A DNA stretch of 64,000 nt from Slackia piriformis YIT 12062 (GTDB lineage: Bacteria > Actinomycetota > Coriobacteriia > Coriobacteriales > Eggerthellaceae). How positions within the stretch are numbered: position 1 is the stretch's first letter; each line of letters opens with the position of its first letter. A program made the translations under genes and the position numbers. The stretch spans positions 312,501 through 376,500 of the forward strand of contig NZ_JH815198.1 of NCBI RefSeq assembly GCF_000296445.1, written 5' to 3'. Below, one piece after another: positions 36,222 through 41,305 of the stretch. The notes below the pieces were generated by a model. That model saw only the letters and a list, made by a program, of their open reading frames with translations, was not told the origin of the DNA and made no database searches.

Positions 36222-36294
36222 AGAGTTCAATGTATATCTTGAGAAATTGAACTTAGGTGGCATAGAATTGAACCTGTTATTGAAATTGAACTCT
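36222..36294 (+). promoter_or_regulatory. Array of four TTGAAC operator half-sites
   Basis: One inverted and three direct copies of ATTGAAC(T/C): AGAGTTCAAT at 36222-36231, ATTGAACT at 36246-36253, ATTGAACC at 36267-36274 and ATTGAACTCT at 36285-36294. The outermost copies form a 10-bp perfect inverted repeat. The array lies just upstream of a gene with an N-terminal XRE DNA-binding domain and overlaps its predicted promoter, so autoregulation is the simplest reading. Confidence 0.75.
36239..36268 (+). promoter_or_regulatory. Predicted promoter of the XRE-aminotransferase gene
   Basis: TTGAGA (36239-36244), an 18-nt spacer, and TAGAAT (36263-36268), each one mismatch from the sigma-70 consensus. 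Operator copy 2 lies in the spacer and copy 3 overlaps the -10, so a bound regulator would block RNA polymerase. Confidence 0.65.
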
Positions 36295-36307
36295 CAAGGA
36301 GGCTTCT

Positions 36308-37957
36308 ATGCCAAACGGTTCATTTTCGGATAGGCTCAAACAGTCTATGGAGTCGGCAGGCATCAAGCAGGCCGATTTGATTCGTCTTGCCGAAAACCAA
36401 GGTAAGAAACTTGGGAAATCTCAGGTCAGTCAATATGTCTCAGGAAAAACCATTCCGCGTAAAGATGTGCTGGACGTCTTAGCTCTTGTTCTTGGCGTCG
36501 ATCGGGACTGGCTGCTCGGTGGAGTAGGGGAGCAGGAAACGGCCGGACGTTCGCAAGGTGTTGTCGCTCAAGGGCAGGAGACGCACGTTTGCACGAATGC
36601 AGCGTCAGACGCTCTTTCTGCCGAGTCTGATTTGCGGAAACGCCCATCCGACGCCATCCCGTCTTCGTCGCCGTCGTCTGATGGGATACATTTGCAGGAA
36701 GCCGTATTGCGTACAATCGATCAGAGGAGTACCGTCATGGGTATGCGTGAGTTCAAGAAATCATCCAAGCTCGACAACGTTTTGTACGACGTGCGCGGTC
36801 CGGTGGCTGACGAGGCCGCCCGCATGGAAGGCAATGGCCAGCATATTCTCAAATTGAACATCGGTAATCCCGCCCCCTTCGGGTTCCGCACGCCGTTCGA
36901 GGTGGTGCAGGACATGCGTCAGCAGCTTCCCGAATGCGAAGGCTACTCCGATTCGCGCGGCCTGTTCTCTGCACGTAAGGCCATCATGCAGTATGCCCAG
37001 ATTAAGCATATCCCCAACGTCGGCATGGACGACATCTACACGGGAAACGGCGTGTCGGAGCTGATCAACCTCTCCATGCAGGCTCTGCTCGATAGCGGGG
37101 ACGAGGTTCTCATTCCTTCGCCCGACTATCCTCTCTGGACGGCATGCGTCACGCTTTCGGGCGGCACACCTGTGCATTATATCTGCGACGAAGAGGCTGA
37201 ATGGTATCCCGATATTGCCGATATCGAGAGCAAGGTCACACCGCGTACCAAGGCTATCGTCATCATCAACCCGAACAACCCTACGGGTGCGGTGTATCCG
37301 CGCGAAGTGTTGCAGGAAATCGTCGAAGTGGCGCGTAGACACCAGCTCATTATTTTCTCCGACGAAATTTATGACCGTTTGTGCATGGACGGTGTCGAGC
37401 ACGTCTCCATTGCAGAACTTGCTCCCGACCTGCCGTGCGTGACGTTCAGCGGGCTTTCGAAATCGCACATGATCGCGGGCTATCGCATCGGGTGGATGAT
37501 TTTTTCGGGTGAGAAGAAATGCATCGAGGGTTTTATGCTGGGCGTCAACATGCTTTCCAACATGCGCCTGTGCTCCAATGTTCCTGCGCAGTCGATCGTT
37601 CAGACGGCGCTTGGCGGGCATCAGAGCGTTAAGGATTACGTCGTTCCAGGCGGGCGCGTGTACGAACAGCGCAATTTCGTATATGAGGCGTTGTGCAACA
37701 TGGAGGGCGTCTCGGTAGTGAAGCCCAAGGCGGCGTTTTACATCTTCCCCAAGCTTGACGTGAAGAAATTCGGCATTACCGACGATGAACAATTCGCGCT
37801 CGACCTGCTTCATCAGAAGAAGATTCTGATCACGCGCGGCGGTGGTTTCAACTGGCATAAGCCCGATCATTTCCGCATTGTGTATCTGCCGCGCATAGAG
37901 GTGCTATCCCAGGCTATGGAAGAGCTGGGAGATTTCCTGGAGCATTACCATCGGTAG
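36308..37957 (+). CDS. XRE transcription factor fused to AlaA-like aminotransferase
   Basis: 549 aa. Residues about 5-68 form an XRE/Cro helix-turn-helix (DRLKQSMESAGIKQADLIRL, then KSQVSQYVSGKTIPRKDVLD). A polar linker spans about 70-143. Residues 144-549 are a fold-type I PLP aminotransferase very close to E. coli AlaA as I remember it (SSKLDNVLYDVRGP, KLNIGNPAPFGF, GNGVSELINLSMQALL, IINPNNPTGAVY, SGLSKSHMIAGYRIGW with PLP Lys385, PGGRVYEQRN). AlaA makes alanine from pyruvate and glutamate. Start ATG follows AAGGAGG. A second in-frame ATG at 36737 with GAGGAG upstream begins exactly at the enzyme domain. Operators in the promoter suggest it represses itself. Architecture parallels MocR/PdxR but with XRE instead of GntR. 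Confidence 0.9.
   Translation: MPNGSFSDRLKQSMESAGIKQADLIRLAENQGKKLGKSQVSQYVSGKTIPRKDVLDVLALVLGVDRDWLLGGVGEQETAGRSQGVVAQGQETHVCTNAASDALSAESDLRKRPSDAIPSSSPSSDGIHLQEAVLRTIDQRSTVMGMREFKKSSKLDNVLYDVRGPVADEAARMEGNGQHILKLNIGNPAPFGFRTPFEVVQDMRQQLPECEGYSDSRGLFSARKAIMQYAQIKHIPNVGMDDIYTGNGVSELINLSMQALLDSGDEVLIPSPDYPLWTACVTLSGGTPVHYICDEEAEWYPDIADIESKVTPRTKAIVIINPNNPTGAVYPREVLQEIVEVARRHQLIIFSDEIYDRLCMDGVEHVSIAELAPDLPCVTFSGLSKSHMIAGYRIGWMIFSGEKKCIEGFMLGVNMLSNMRLCSNVPAQSIVQTALGGHQSVKDYVVPGGRVYEQRNFVYEALCNMEGVSVVKPKAAFYIFPKLDVKKFGITDDEQFALDLLHQKKILITRGGGFNWHKPDHFRIVYLPRIEVLSQAMEELGDFLEHYHR
36723..36739 (+). promoter_or_regulatory. Internal ribosome binding site and start within the fusion gene
   Basis: AGAGGAG at 36723-36729, 7 nt, then ATG at 36737, in frame with the fusion. 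It falls at the end of the linker and would give a 406-aa free aminotransferase with its PLP lysine at 242, near the position in stand-alone AlaA. Use in vivo is inferred. Confidence 0.45.
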
Positions 37958-38130: not shown

Positions 38131-39114
38131 TTACTCGAACTCGATGGTGCCGCAGGGCTTCGGGGTAAGGTCGTACAGAACGCGGCAGATGCCATCGACT
38201 TCGGAGGCAATACGGTCGCCAATCTTCTTGAGAAGCGTCCAATCAAGCTCAGGCACCTTGGCGGTCATGGCGTCCACGGTGTTGACCGCGCGGATAAACG
38301 CCGGCCACTCGTAGAGGCGCTTGTCGTCCTTCACGCCGGTGACGCGGAAGTCCGGCACGGAGACGAAGTACTGCCACACCTTGCCCTCAAGGCCGGCATT
38401 GGCAAACTCCTCGCGCAGGATGGCGTCGGCCTCACGCAGGGCCTCCAGGCGATCGCGGGTGATGGCGCCGAGGCAGCGAACACCCAGACCGGGACCCGGG
38501 AAAGGCTGGCGCTCGACCATGTTCTCGGGCAGGCCGAGCTCGCGGCCGATGACGCGCACTTCGTCTTTGAAGAGCAGCTTGACGGGTTCGCAGAGTTCGA
38601 ACTGCAGGTCGTCAGGCAGGCCGCCTACGTTGTGGTGTGCCTTCACGCCGTCGGACTCGAGGATGTCGGGATAGATGGTGCCCTGTGCGAGGAAGCTGAC
38701 GCTGTCTCCGACCTTGCGGGCTTCCTCTTCGAACACGCGGATGAACTCGGCGCCGATGATCTTGCGCTTGGCCTCGGGTTCGGCCACGCCGTCGAGCAGG
38801 TTGAGGAAGCGATCGGTGGCGTCGACGTAGACGAGGTTGGCGTCGAGCTGGTTCTTGAAGACGTCTACAACCTGTTCGCTTTCGCCCTTGCGCATAAGGC
38901 CGTGGTTCACGTGGACGCAGATGAGCTGCTTGCCGATGGCCTTGATGAGCAGCGCCGCGACTACGGAGGAGTCAACGCCGCCGGAAAGTGCCAAAAGTAC
39001 GTTTTTGTCGCCAACCTGGGCGCGGACCTCTTCGACCTTCTCATTGATGAAAGCCTGGGCAAGTTCGGGCGTGGTGATGCGCTCCATGTCTTCGGGACGC
39101 TTGTTCGGATCCAT
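38131..39114 (-). CDS. guaA: GMP synthase, ATP pyrophosphatase subunit only
   Basis: Catalyses amination of XMP to GMP, using ATP. 327 aa covering only the ATP-pyrophosphatase (SGGVDSS, about 44-50) and C-terminal dimerisation domains (QPFPGPGLGVRCLG, TPKPCGTIEFE). The class I glutamine amidotransferase domain that normally forms the first 200 residues of bacterial GuaA (about 515 aa) is absent. ATG 39114 follows AAAGGAG, so the short start is real; upstream sequence in this frame has no amidotransferase motif. Either a separate glutaminase subunit is encoded elsewhere, as in archaea, or free ammonia is used. Confidence 0.9.
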   Translation of the reverse strand: MDPNKRPEDMERITTPELAQAFINEKVEEVRAQVGDKNVLLALSGGVDSSVVAALLIKAIGKQLICVHVNHGLMRKGESEQVVDVFKNQLDANLVYVDATDRFLNLLDGVAEPEAKRKIIGAEFIRVFEEEARKVGDSVSFLAQGTIYPDILESDGVKAHHNVGGLPDDLQFELCEPVKLLFKDEVRVIGRELGLPENMVERQPFPGPGLGVRCLGAITRDRLEALREADAILREEFANAGLEGKVWQYFVSVPDFRVTGVKDDKRLYEWPAFIRAVNTVDAMTAKVPELDWTLLKKIGDRIASEVDGICRVLYDLTPKPCGTIEFE

Positions 39115-39305
39115 CCGAGCTCCTTTCGGTGTTATGAACGCATGCGTGGTGCACGCTGCGTCGTCTTTTGCGAGCGCTGCGAGCGGTTTGGCAGCGCAGC
39201 TCAATAGTATGTGCGTATTGTACCGACTGCATGACGAGGGTAGCGAAGAAACCGAAGGGAAATGCAACGATATCCATACGTTGTGCGCAATGGCGGCCGA
39301 AGAGG

Positions 39306-39782
39306 CTACGCTTCCTTGCCGATCTCGATCAGAATGTCGATCGTCATCTCGAGGCCGTCGAGAATGCAGAGGTCGCATCCGCGAAGAGGAGCCTCGCCTT
39401 CGACATTCTTGATTTCCTCGCAGATGGTCGATCCGACGCGGGTGCGGAAGTTTTCGACGAGTTTGCGGGCCCATACGTACGTGTCCTGCTTGCTGGTGGG
39501 GTCGTTTGAGCCGTTGCTGCATGCAAGCCCTATGATGACCTCTCCGCCGGAGATGGCACCGCACGTTTCCGTGAAGCCTCCCATGCCGCCGCCGAGCGCT
39601 TCGGTGGCGCGGAAGATAAGGTCTTCATCGGCTCCGACGAACGGAGCGAGCGTGCAGGCGACGCATTGGGCGCAGTTGAAATTGCGGCTGTGCATTGCAA
39701 GCGCACGGTCGGCGAGGGCCTTTCGGTCGAACGCCTCCTCGGTCCAGGATGTCTTGTCGAAAGCAGGGTCGGTCTGTGTCAT
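39306..39782 (-). CDS. C_GCAxxG_C_C family protein
   Basis: 158 aa, cysteine-rich. The pattern NCAQCV (about 37), a glycine-rich GGGMGGFTETCGAISGG segment, and late cysteines in STICEEI and RGCDLCILDGL fit the C_GCAxxG_C_C family (DVU_1555-like), common in anaerobes and thought to be redox or metal related. ATG 39782 has AAAGGAG upstream; an earlier in-frame ATG at 39815 lacks a site. It lies 191 nt upstream of guaA on the same strand and could be co-transcribed. Confidence 0.82.
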   Translation of the reverse strand: MTQTDPAFDKTSWTEEAFDRKALADRALAMHSRNFNCAQCVACTLAPFVGADEDLIFRATEALGGGMGGFTETCGAISGGEVIIGLACSNGSNDPTSKQDTYVWARKLVENFRTRVGSTICEEIKNVEGEAPLRGCDLCILDGLEMTIDILIEIGKEA

Positions 39783-39937
39783 GGGGTCTCCTTTCGAATG
39801 CCTTGGATGAATCATAGCCCAGGCGGCTGGACGCTCATAGCCCGCCTGGGCGATCGCTGACGTTTCAGGCGAGCGGTTGCTGGCGCGGCGTGAAGGCTTG
39901 ATTCATAGCTTTCACAACCAAATTCGTGAAAAATCAA

Positions 39938-39966
39938 TTGACAAATTCTATGGGGTAAAGTCTAAT
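39938..39966 (+). promoter_or_regulatory. Near-consensus promoter of the triple-Rid gene
   Basis: TTGACA (39938-39943), a 17-nt spacer and TCTAAT (39961-39966): perfect -35, one mismatch in -10, ideal spacing. A/T-rich sequence (GTGAAAAATCAA) lies just upstream, like an UP element. It predicts a leader of about 65 nt. It is the strongest promoter match I found in the window. Confidence 0.8.
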
Positions 39967-40039
39967 GCGCTTGCGAGAAAACAAGGGGAAAGTTTTCTCC
40001 GCAACCTTATTGAAGGGTGTCAACAGAAAGGGTATTGCC

Positions 40040-41305
40040 ATGGGCGATAACGTGGTATTGGCCAGGAACACTGAGAAGGCGCCGAAGTGCCCGATGTGCT
40101 CTCAGACCGTAGCGTTCTCTCATTACAACAACCTCTCGGCTCAGCTGCCTGTCGATCCTAAGACTGGCGCAATCGTCGCGGGCGGCGTCAAGGAGCAGGC
40201 TGATCAGTGCTTCCGCAACATCAAGGAAATCGTTGCGAGCATCGGTCACAACCTGAACGACGTCGTTCGCATCACCATCTTCGTCAAAGACATCATGGAT
40301 CTTGACGTTGTCGAGAAGGCTTACAAGTCCTTCTTCACCACCTACGTGCCCACCCGCACCGTCGTTGCCGTCAACGATCTGCCCATGGGCGCGCTCGTCC
40401 AGGTCGAGGCTCTCCTCACCAACGGCGAAGGCACCATTCCGAACGAGCCCCAGGCTGGCGACTTGCTCAAGTACGTCAACAACACCCACAATGCTCCGTT
40501 CGATGCGATGTCCAGCCAGTCTGTGGCATTCTCCCACTACAACAACATCACGGCGCAGCTGCCGATCGACCCCGTAAGCAACCAGGTCGTCATGGGTGGC
40601 GTCCAGGAGCAGACCGCTCAGTGCCTCAAGAACATCAAGGCTGTCCTCACCGCTATGGACGTTCCTTTCGATGACATCGTCAAGGTCAACGTCTTCTTGA
40701 AGGACCTCGGCGACGTTGAGGCCATGAACGAGATCTACAAGCGCTTCTTCCCCGATTCGGGCATTGCTCGCGCGGTCAACTACCTCCCGGCTCGTACCGT
40801 GGTTGAGGTTGCAGACCTGCCCATGCATGCGCTCGTTCAGATCGAGGCTGTGTGCTCTCACGGCGACGGCACGCCTCCGCAGGCTGTCGAGGACCGTCAC
40901 GGTCTGATTGTCGAGGCGAACAACATCGCGAATGCTCCTAAGGATGCGCTGTCTTCCCAGACCGTTGCATTCTCTCACTACAACAATATCTCCGCTCAGC
41001 TCGGCATCGATCCCGCAACGGGCGCTCTGGTCGAGGGCGGCGTGAAGGCCGAGACCGAGCAGTGCCTCAAGAACATCAAGGCCATCATCGAGAGCGTTGA
41101 CCATGTGATGGAAGACGCCGTCAAGGTCAACATCTTCGTGAAGGACATGGCTGACATGGACGCTGTCAACGAGGTCTATGCTCAGTTCTTCCCCGAGGGA
41201 GCCCCTGCTCGTCGTGTCGTCGGCGTTGCGAACCTCCCCATGGGCGCAGCCATCCAGATCGACGCCATCTTCGGCAACTTCGAAGGCACCCCGCCGATCG
41301 CTTAA
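40040..41305 (+). CDS. Three tandem RidA (YjgF/YER057c) domains in one chain
   Basis: 421 aa with three Rid domains, about 15-130, 155-275 and 300-418, each starting Q-(T/S)-V-A-F-S-H-Y-N-N-(L/I)-(S/T)-A-Q-L. RidA hydrolyses reactive enamines and imines such as 2-aminoacrylate released by PLP enzymes and works as a homotrimer with active sites between subunits. The catalytic Arg is kept in all three (R106, R252, R391, each in P-x-R-x-V-V). The partner acidic residue is E123, E269 and, in domain 3, D408. ATG 40040 follows AAAGGG. Codons are strongly biased to C-ending choices (AAC, AAG, ATC, GTC) unlike neighbours, matching a strong promoter and terminator: a highly expressed protein. Probably a single-chain pseudo-trimer. 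Confidence 0.93.
   Translation: MGDNVVLARNTEKAPKCPMCSQTVAFSHYNNLSAQLPVDPKTGAIVAGGVKEQADQCFRNIKEIVASIGHNLNDVVRITIFVKDIMDLDVVEKAYKSFFTTYVPTRTVVAVNDLPMGALVQVEALLTNGEGTIPNEPQAGDLLKYVNNTHNAPFDAMSSQSVAFSHYNNITAQLPIDPVSNQVVMGGVQEQTAQCLKNIKAVLTAMDVPFDDIVKVNVFLKDLGDVEAMNEIYKRFFPDSGIARAVNYLPARTVVEVADLPMHALVQIEAVCSHGDGTPPQAVEDRHGLIVEANNIANAPKDALSSQTVAFSHYNNISAQLGIDPATGALVEGGVKAETEQCLKNIKAIIESVDHVMEDAVKVNIFVKDMADMDAVNEVYAQFFPEGAPARRVVGVANLPMGAAIQIDAIFGNFEGTPPIA

Follow-up and report, generated by a model that had tools for sequence, protein, structure and literature searches.

A predicted self-regulating alanine aminotransferase gene in Slackia piriformis, with a CI-type DNA-binding head and a proposed nested start for the free enzyme

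Trigger enzymes, which combine an enzyme with a sequence-specific regulator, are represented in Escherichia coli by PutA and BirA, where the enzyme and a DNA-binding domain share one chain; we know of no enzyme-only form produced from a nested start for either of them. PutA is described as binding only beside its own gene (PMC8249747). The MocR/PdxR/GabR proteins combine an N-terminal helix-turn-helix (HTH) with a domain resembling fold-type I aminotransferases (PMC5320631), and in the CI repressor of phage TP901-1 a flexible linker connects the DNA-binding head with an oligomerising part (PMC4941734). In CheA and infB/IF2, a Shine-Dalgarno (SD) sequence and a start codon inside the reading frame give rise to an N-terminally shortened protein (PMC11005335).

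The gene analysed here lies in a 64,000-nucleotide stretch of the S. piriformis YIT 12062 genome (the window) and would, by analogy, resemble a PutA-type autoregulating trigger enzyme with a nested start in the style of CheA and IF2. Like PutA and BirA, it encodes an enzyme and a DNA-binding domain in one chain, and, as with PutA, its predicted sites lie mainly at its own gene; however, the enzyme families and DNA-binding folds are different ones. With MocR it shares a C-terminal class I aminotransferase-like domain (Pfam Aminotran_1_2 at residues 179–526, 176 bits against a cut-off of 19.7), whereas its head is of the XRE/CI and not the GntR type, its enzyme part, complete in its catalytic set, is close to a genuine AlaA, and it has a nested start. 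The likeness to TP901-1 CI consists of the related head, the AGTTCA core of the half-site and the flexible linker; but here an enzyme replaces the oligomerisation domain of CI, the gene is a cellular one outside any prophage switch, and the half-site spacing varies and differs from that of CI. Compared with the glutamate-pyruvate aminotransferase AlaA itself, there is an extra head and linker as well as an operator cluster of its own. Unlike the shortened CheA and IF2, the short product is predicted only, and it would part the enzyme from the DNA-binding head. No description of an XRE-AlaA protein was found among the open-licence PMC papers listed, as far as their titles and the beginnings of their abstracts tell. 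We propose, with a probability of roughly 80%, a self-regulating alanine aminotransferase gene, in which a CI-type head would act on its own TTGAAC sites and a nested start would supply short AlaA. The features on which this proposal is built are the following:

36225–36231, minus strand: predicted operator half-site 1, ATTGAAC on this strand, 5' of the -35; paired in inverted orientation with half-site 2 at 36245
36239–36268, plus strand: promoter-like site TTGAGA-18-TAGAAT, 10/12 matches, a consensus match only
36245–36252, plus strand: predicted operator half-site 2, AATTGAAC, within the promoter spacer (motif match)
36266–36273, plus strand: predicted operator half-site 3, AATTGAAC, overlapping the -10 (motif match)
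36284–36291, plus strand: predicted operator half-site 4, AATTGAAC, immediately 5' of the ribosome-binding site (motif match)
36296–36302, plus strand: SD sequence AAGGAGG of the long form, read from the sequence
36308–37957, plus strand: long form (HTH and AlaA, 549 aa, stop included), a single open frame with an ATG start
36323–36514, plus strand: XRE/CI-type HTH, residues 6–69 (Pfam match; nearest solved relative TP901-1 CI)
36725–36729, plus strand: internal SD core AGGAG, duplex energy -8.5, p 0.015 under a synonymous null
36737–37957, plus strand: proposed short form, AlaA alone, 406 aa, stop included, suggested by conservation
37460–37462, plus strand: codon of the PLP lysine (Lys385, from the alignment to E. 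coli AlaA); K in 207/207 enzyme domains

The first-pass annotation had read ORF 36308–37957 as an XRE-type DNA-binding head, distinct from the GntR type of MocR, fused to an enzyme domain with the catalytic set of AlaA, and this reading holds. HTH_31 (residues 6–67, 28.2 bits against 27) and HTH_3 (residues 11–69, 25.5 bits against 23) both exceed their Pfam cut-offs, if marginally, and the head is homologous to the DNA-binding domain of TP901-1 CI, its nearest solved relative (3zhm, E 6e-8), with the 434 repressor more distant. There is no GntR match, and membership in MocR, which would place a GntR-type winged helix at the N-terminus, was rejected. The best solved relative of the enzyme part is E. 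coli AlaA (4cvq), collinear over residues 146–549 with an E value of 4e-166; NNPTG is found at 323–327 and Lys385 within SGLSKS, the E. coli counterpart of which we take to be Lys240 in that protein's numbering. Fourteen positions at or near the active site, Lys385 included, were counted over 207 enzyme domains (156 fused and 51 unfused), the choice of residues counted as catalytic being our assumption, and all fourteen are identical in 156/156 fused proteins. Full-length collinear similarity and the complete catalytic set place the domain among the AlaA-type enzymes, and it is predicted to be an intact alanine aminotransferase. NCBIfam gave matches to 73 models, and not one of the 25 shown reached its curated cut-off, the best score being that of the alanine aminotransferase PRK08363 (348.8 against 534). 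No second close AlaA was found in the same genome (2.12 Mb, 98.85% complete), where the next match has 28% identity. One of the fourteen positions, M388 (37469–37471), three residues past the PLP lysine, is Met in 156/156 fused proteins, while the 51 unfused relatives have R, K, L, Y or M at this position (M in 11/51); this may be either a clade mark or a matter of function.

The search for the two-domain architecture across genomes, proposed in the earlier reading, yielded 156 distinct fused genes in Coriobacteriia and Lachnospiraceae. The possibility that the fused frame is an assembly artefact was thereby rejected, since the fusion repeats in independent assemblies, isolates included (Slackia faecicanis, S. 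equolifaciens, Olsenella An293 and Collinsella tanakaei). In a scan of named genomes, restricted to the best 80 of 200 confirmed stretches, the fused forms came from Slackia, other Eggerthellaceae, Atopobiaceae, Collinsella and many Lachnospiraceae; Streptococcus, Enterococcus, Vagococcus and some Clostridia had unfused ones. A close ortholog was present in 31 of the 61 genomes sampled up to the order, and the head was also matched in 29 of these 31 (the two without are L112 and L114). The Coriobacteriia sample gave a close ortholog in 153/296 genomes, with frames of at least 489 aa for 142 of the 150 matches listed, counted by eye, a length that alone is no proof of a head. The linker between head and enzyme has a length of 14–89 residues, as bounded by our script, and is variable and unalignable among relatives, except for its conserved end.

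In a tree of 72 enzyme domains, the fused forms split into two halves, one rich in Lachnospiraceae and one of Coriobacteriia, and a small number of unfused genes are nested within these. This tree and another of 90 domains both need 5 changes of head state, of which strongly supported branches force 3 in the former and just 1 in the latter. The simplest reading would be that the fusion arose once, that the head was lost in some cases, and that the gene was transferred between Coriobacteriia and Lachnospiraceae, the nested HTH-less genes being likely such losses. Three of these (L112, L235 and L256) have retained an SD and an ATG in the corresponding position and lack the operator cluster upstream, L112 having a single copy. 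No separate HTH gene or remnant was found within 1,100 nt upstream of 13 HTH-less genes in the three forward frames. Independent-pairs sign tests on the trees had 1 and 4 pairs, too few.

The four ATTGAAC half-sites of the window fall inside 67 bp and lie around the promoter-like site at 36239–36268, one of 2 such sites found in the region against 0.6 expected from shuffles. In a first set of 48 fused genes, the upstream 250 nt contained 198 TTGAAC/GTTCAA sites, that is 4.1 per gene against 0.21 in shuffles, with at least two sites in 46/48 genes and one each in L015 and L016; upstream of 45 unfused genes there were 2 sites in total, and at least two in 0/45. We then turned to a held-out set of 126 further loci not used in forming the idea, from which 13 duplicates were dropped and in which a profile built from the first set called 106 genes with and 7 without a head. 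The held-out genomes are related to those of the first set and no independent draws; in them, the 106 fused genes had 470 sites against 19.9 expected from shuffles and at least two in 106/106, and 0/7 genes without a head had any TTGAAC site, the upstream region of L226 being masked with N. After clustering at 85%, operator repeats remained in 39/40 genes with a head versus 0/18 without. The predicted operators thus track the head, which is strong indirect evidence for the DNA binding proposed in the earlier reading and would fit the regulatory side of a trigger enzyme.

The consensus of the half-site is AAATTGAACTT (201 sites). Among the 24 inverted pairs of 36–41 bp listed, 16 enclose a -10-like box, as judged by eye with a loose pattern, whereas the window's own inverted pair, of 28 bp, is outside this range and has no such -10 inside. 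A copy of AATTGAAC at 36852, within KLN codons of the enzyme, was considered as a coding-region operator and rejected as chance, given that most relatives use other codons. Copies of the operator also occur in linkers, with 18 sites in 11/50 genes of the first set against 2.1 expected from shuffles and 19 sites in 17/106 held-out genes against 3.3; they are seen in L095, L098, L102, L105, L106, L111 and others, some of them encoding EIEL-like peptides, and may perhaps serve as an internal promoter or a roadblock. No TTGAAC copy is present in the window's own linker.

The TTGAAC motif had been fixed before solved relatives of the head were searched for. The half-site consensus of TP901-1 CI is given as AGTTCAYR (PMC8516035), and its sites as AGTTCACG and an OL site that has AGTTCA at one end and TGAACT at the other (PMC7250872, PMC4941734). 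On its opposite strand, the predicted operator reads AAGTTCAATTT, so that an AGTTCA core is common to both. Of the 12 genomes in the genus, 10 have the fused gene, and all 10 carry paired ATTGAAC sites upstream of alaA; the 2 without it (one of these 83% complete) have no such pairs. Away from alaA there were six direct-pair matches in one genome (G005) and one convergent pair in each of two others (G007 and G004); those of G005 lie on contigs C18, C29, C47 and C68 (L138 and L140–L144) with a spacing of about 30 nt. In the window's own genome, TTGAAC pairs with a distance of 4–28 nt were seen at 18 separate places, of which 3 are at alaA, and at least one of the others (L119) sits between frames. 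A wider regulon was rejected there, as requiring ATTGAAC, in direct and convergent arrangements, leaves alaA alone. From its predicted sites, the own gene appears to be the main target, and perhaps the sole one in most genomes of the genus. Taken together, the operator clusters tied to the head, the pairs found in the genus mainly at alaA and the match to the CI core argue that the fused protein is very probably a dedicated autoregulator. The earlier reading had noticed neither this operator cluster, nor its near confinement in the genus to the own gene, nor the nested SD and start described next.

The linker terminates, where free AlaA begins, in a purine-rich SD and an ATG, so that the gene contains a conserved SD and start codon inside its frame. 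In the window, AGGAG at 36725–36729 lies 7 nt before the ATG at 36737 (Met144) and 13 nt before that at 36743 (Met146). An internal start codon is found in 151/156 fused genes and together with an SD energy of -5 or lower in 142/156, in a combined count whose start-codon search was slightly wider than that of the single sets. In the first set, the internal codon is ATG in 47/50 genes and GTG in L110, and the SD energy averages -8.0, where synonymous recodings give -4.5 and the remaining linker positions -3.9; taken singly, only 22/50 genes beat the synonymous-codon null at p<0.05. The held-out set gave ATG in 99 and GTG in 2 of 106 genes and a mean of -7.7 against -3.8 and -3.1, respectively, with 60/106 genes singly at p<0.05 and the internal SD the strongest site of the linker in 61/103. 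An SD of -7 or lower precedes 125/151 internal starts versus 254/2100 other in-frame ATGs of the same genes; at the more lenient measure of -5, the counts are 142/151 versus 591/2100.

Codon choice agrees with this picture. Arginine in the SD zone is written AGG in 20/24 cases versus 94/1458 elsewhere in the first set (p 8e-20), in 59/72 versus 159/3262 in the held-out set, and in 12/17 versus 83/1106 among 40 representatives at 85% (p 3e-10), this clustering being the only way in which the codon p-values take relatedness into account. The preference for GGA at glycine is weaker (18/31 versus 337/1820 in the first set, 8/26 versus 292/3777 in the held-out set, and 7/18 versus 224/1381 in the 85% representatives, p 0.02). 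The SD occurs in each of the three codon phases (phase 0 in 22, phase 1 in 5 and phase 2 in 21 of 48 genes), which points to selection at the level of nucleotides rather than amino acids. RNA folding at the internal start showed no excess (z +1.5), and nine of the 156 fused genes have the internal start codon with an SD weaker than -5. Thus, comparative evidence supports that the internal SD and start are under selection, and their retention at the linker end where AlaA begins suggests that the same mRNA probably yields short AlaA, one gene making a long repressor-enzyme and a short enzyme.

We then asked how such a gene would work. The long chains would dimerise via the enzyme, presenting two CI-type heads on flexible tethers, and the heads would occupy the TTGAAC half-sites at the promoter of alaA, with repression once the enzyme suffices as the most likely effect; the long flexible linkers could tolerate varied half-site spacing. 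The short chain would be a head-less supply of enzyme from the same mRNA, and short and long chains may form mixed dimers that bind DNA poorly. Actual initiation at the internal start, the dimers, the mixed dimers and any metabolite control are what we infer. A doubtful extension makes the gene a repressor with a built-in antagonist: short AlaA would pair with long, the one-headed mixed dimer would release the paired operator, and the ratio of the two starts on one mRNA, perhaps tuned by the PLP or alanine state of the active site that both forms share, would set the amount of a central metabolic enzyme. If this extension were true, Coriobacteriia and Lachnospiraceae would possess a one-gene homeostat that combines a phage-repressor head with an enzyme dimer.

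Self-regulation as proposed here is compatible with a plausible further step, the trigger-enzyme idea of the earlier reading, in which the PLP/PMP or substrate-bound state of the enzyme alters DNA binding such that alanine, glutamate or pyruvate status sets alaA. The enzyme and the DNA-binding head share one chain, the catalytic set is intact and the predicted operators are at the own promoter, all of which speaks for such gating; precedents are the enzyme-repressor PutA, which binds only between putA and putP (PMC8249747), and GabR of the MocR family, which is reported to respond to GABA. However, the freely varying linker gives no sign of a conserved interdomain contact, and a simple dose feedback works without any ligand, so we hold the ligand step only tentatively, at somewhat less than even odds. 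Operator sites around or downstream of a -10, or near the start codon, are usual for repressors. The variation of the sites in number, orientation and spacing across fused genes (59 ++, 48 -+, 31 +- and 14 -- neighbouring pairs) could be taken to mean that the head activates its own promoter or acts as an architectural clamp; nevertheless, the sites lie around and downstream of the -10-like boxes, the last one is at most 40 nt from the start codon in 34/49 genes, and TP901-1 CI, the nearest relative, is a repressor (PMC8516035, PMC7250872, PMC4941734), which makes activation or clamping very unlikely. Repression is the most likely mode, judging from site positions and from this relative.

The nested start could, on the other hand, be without a useful product, the protein being an autoregulator only and the internal SD and ATG either a relic from before the fusion or an SD-like pause for the folding of the head. 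SD-like stretches have been held to slow ribosomes, although this is disputed, and a pause requires no start codon; in addition, the internal Met is inside an MREFKKS run that is conserved as protein too, and the start codon is missing in 5/156 genes. Four of these five genes, though, also have an SD weaker than -5 (L261 keeps its SD), Met is rare in the rest of the linkers (35 of 5973 residues), and rare AGG codons are retained for the SD. The SD and start persist across phyla with a spacing typical of initiation, in spite of a linker with no other alignable sequence. We therefore consider it unlikely that the internal site yields nothing of use, and return to the self-regulating gene with two products as the preferred reading.

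Should this reading be true, the gene would encode a regulator based on an aminotransferase that was assembled, independently of MocR, with a phage-CI-type head and whose enzyme part was not reduced to a mere sensor; it would also be a simple case of a regulator and a free enzyme obtained from one gene via a nested ribosome-binding site. The close ortholog in about half of the Coriobacteriia genomes sampled would give it a bearing on the alanine supply of a common bacterial group, and annotation of the long frame alone would overlook the predicted free enzyme.

The neighbours of the fused gene in the window are an esterase-like gene, upstream and with the same orientation, and a GMP-synthase gene, downstream and on the opposite strand, so the fused gene is probably transcribed alone. 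GMP synthase makes up the C-terminal part of the frame at 38131–39564 (minus strand), which is adjoined by a C_GCAxxG_C_C redox-family protein at 39306–39815 (minus strand). RidA proteins, which protect PLP enzymes, usually form trimers of single-domain chains; the frame at 39965–41305 (plus strand) encodes three RidA/YjgF-type stretches (Ribonuc_L-PSP, 245.6 bits) in one protein of 446 aa, which has the look of a covalent triple.
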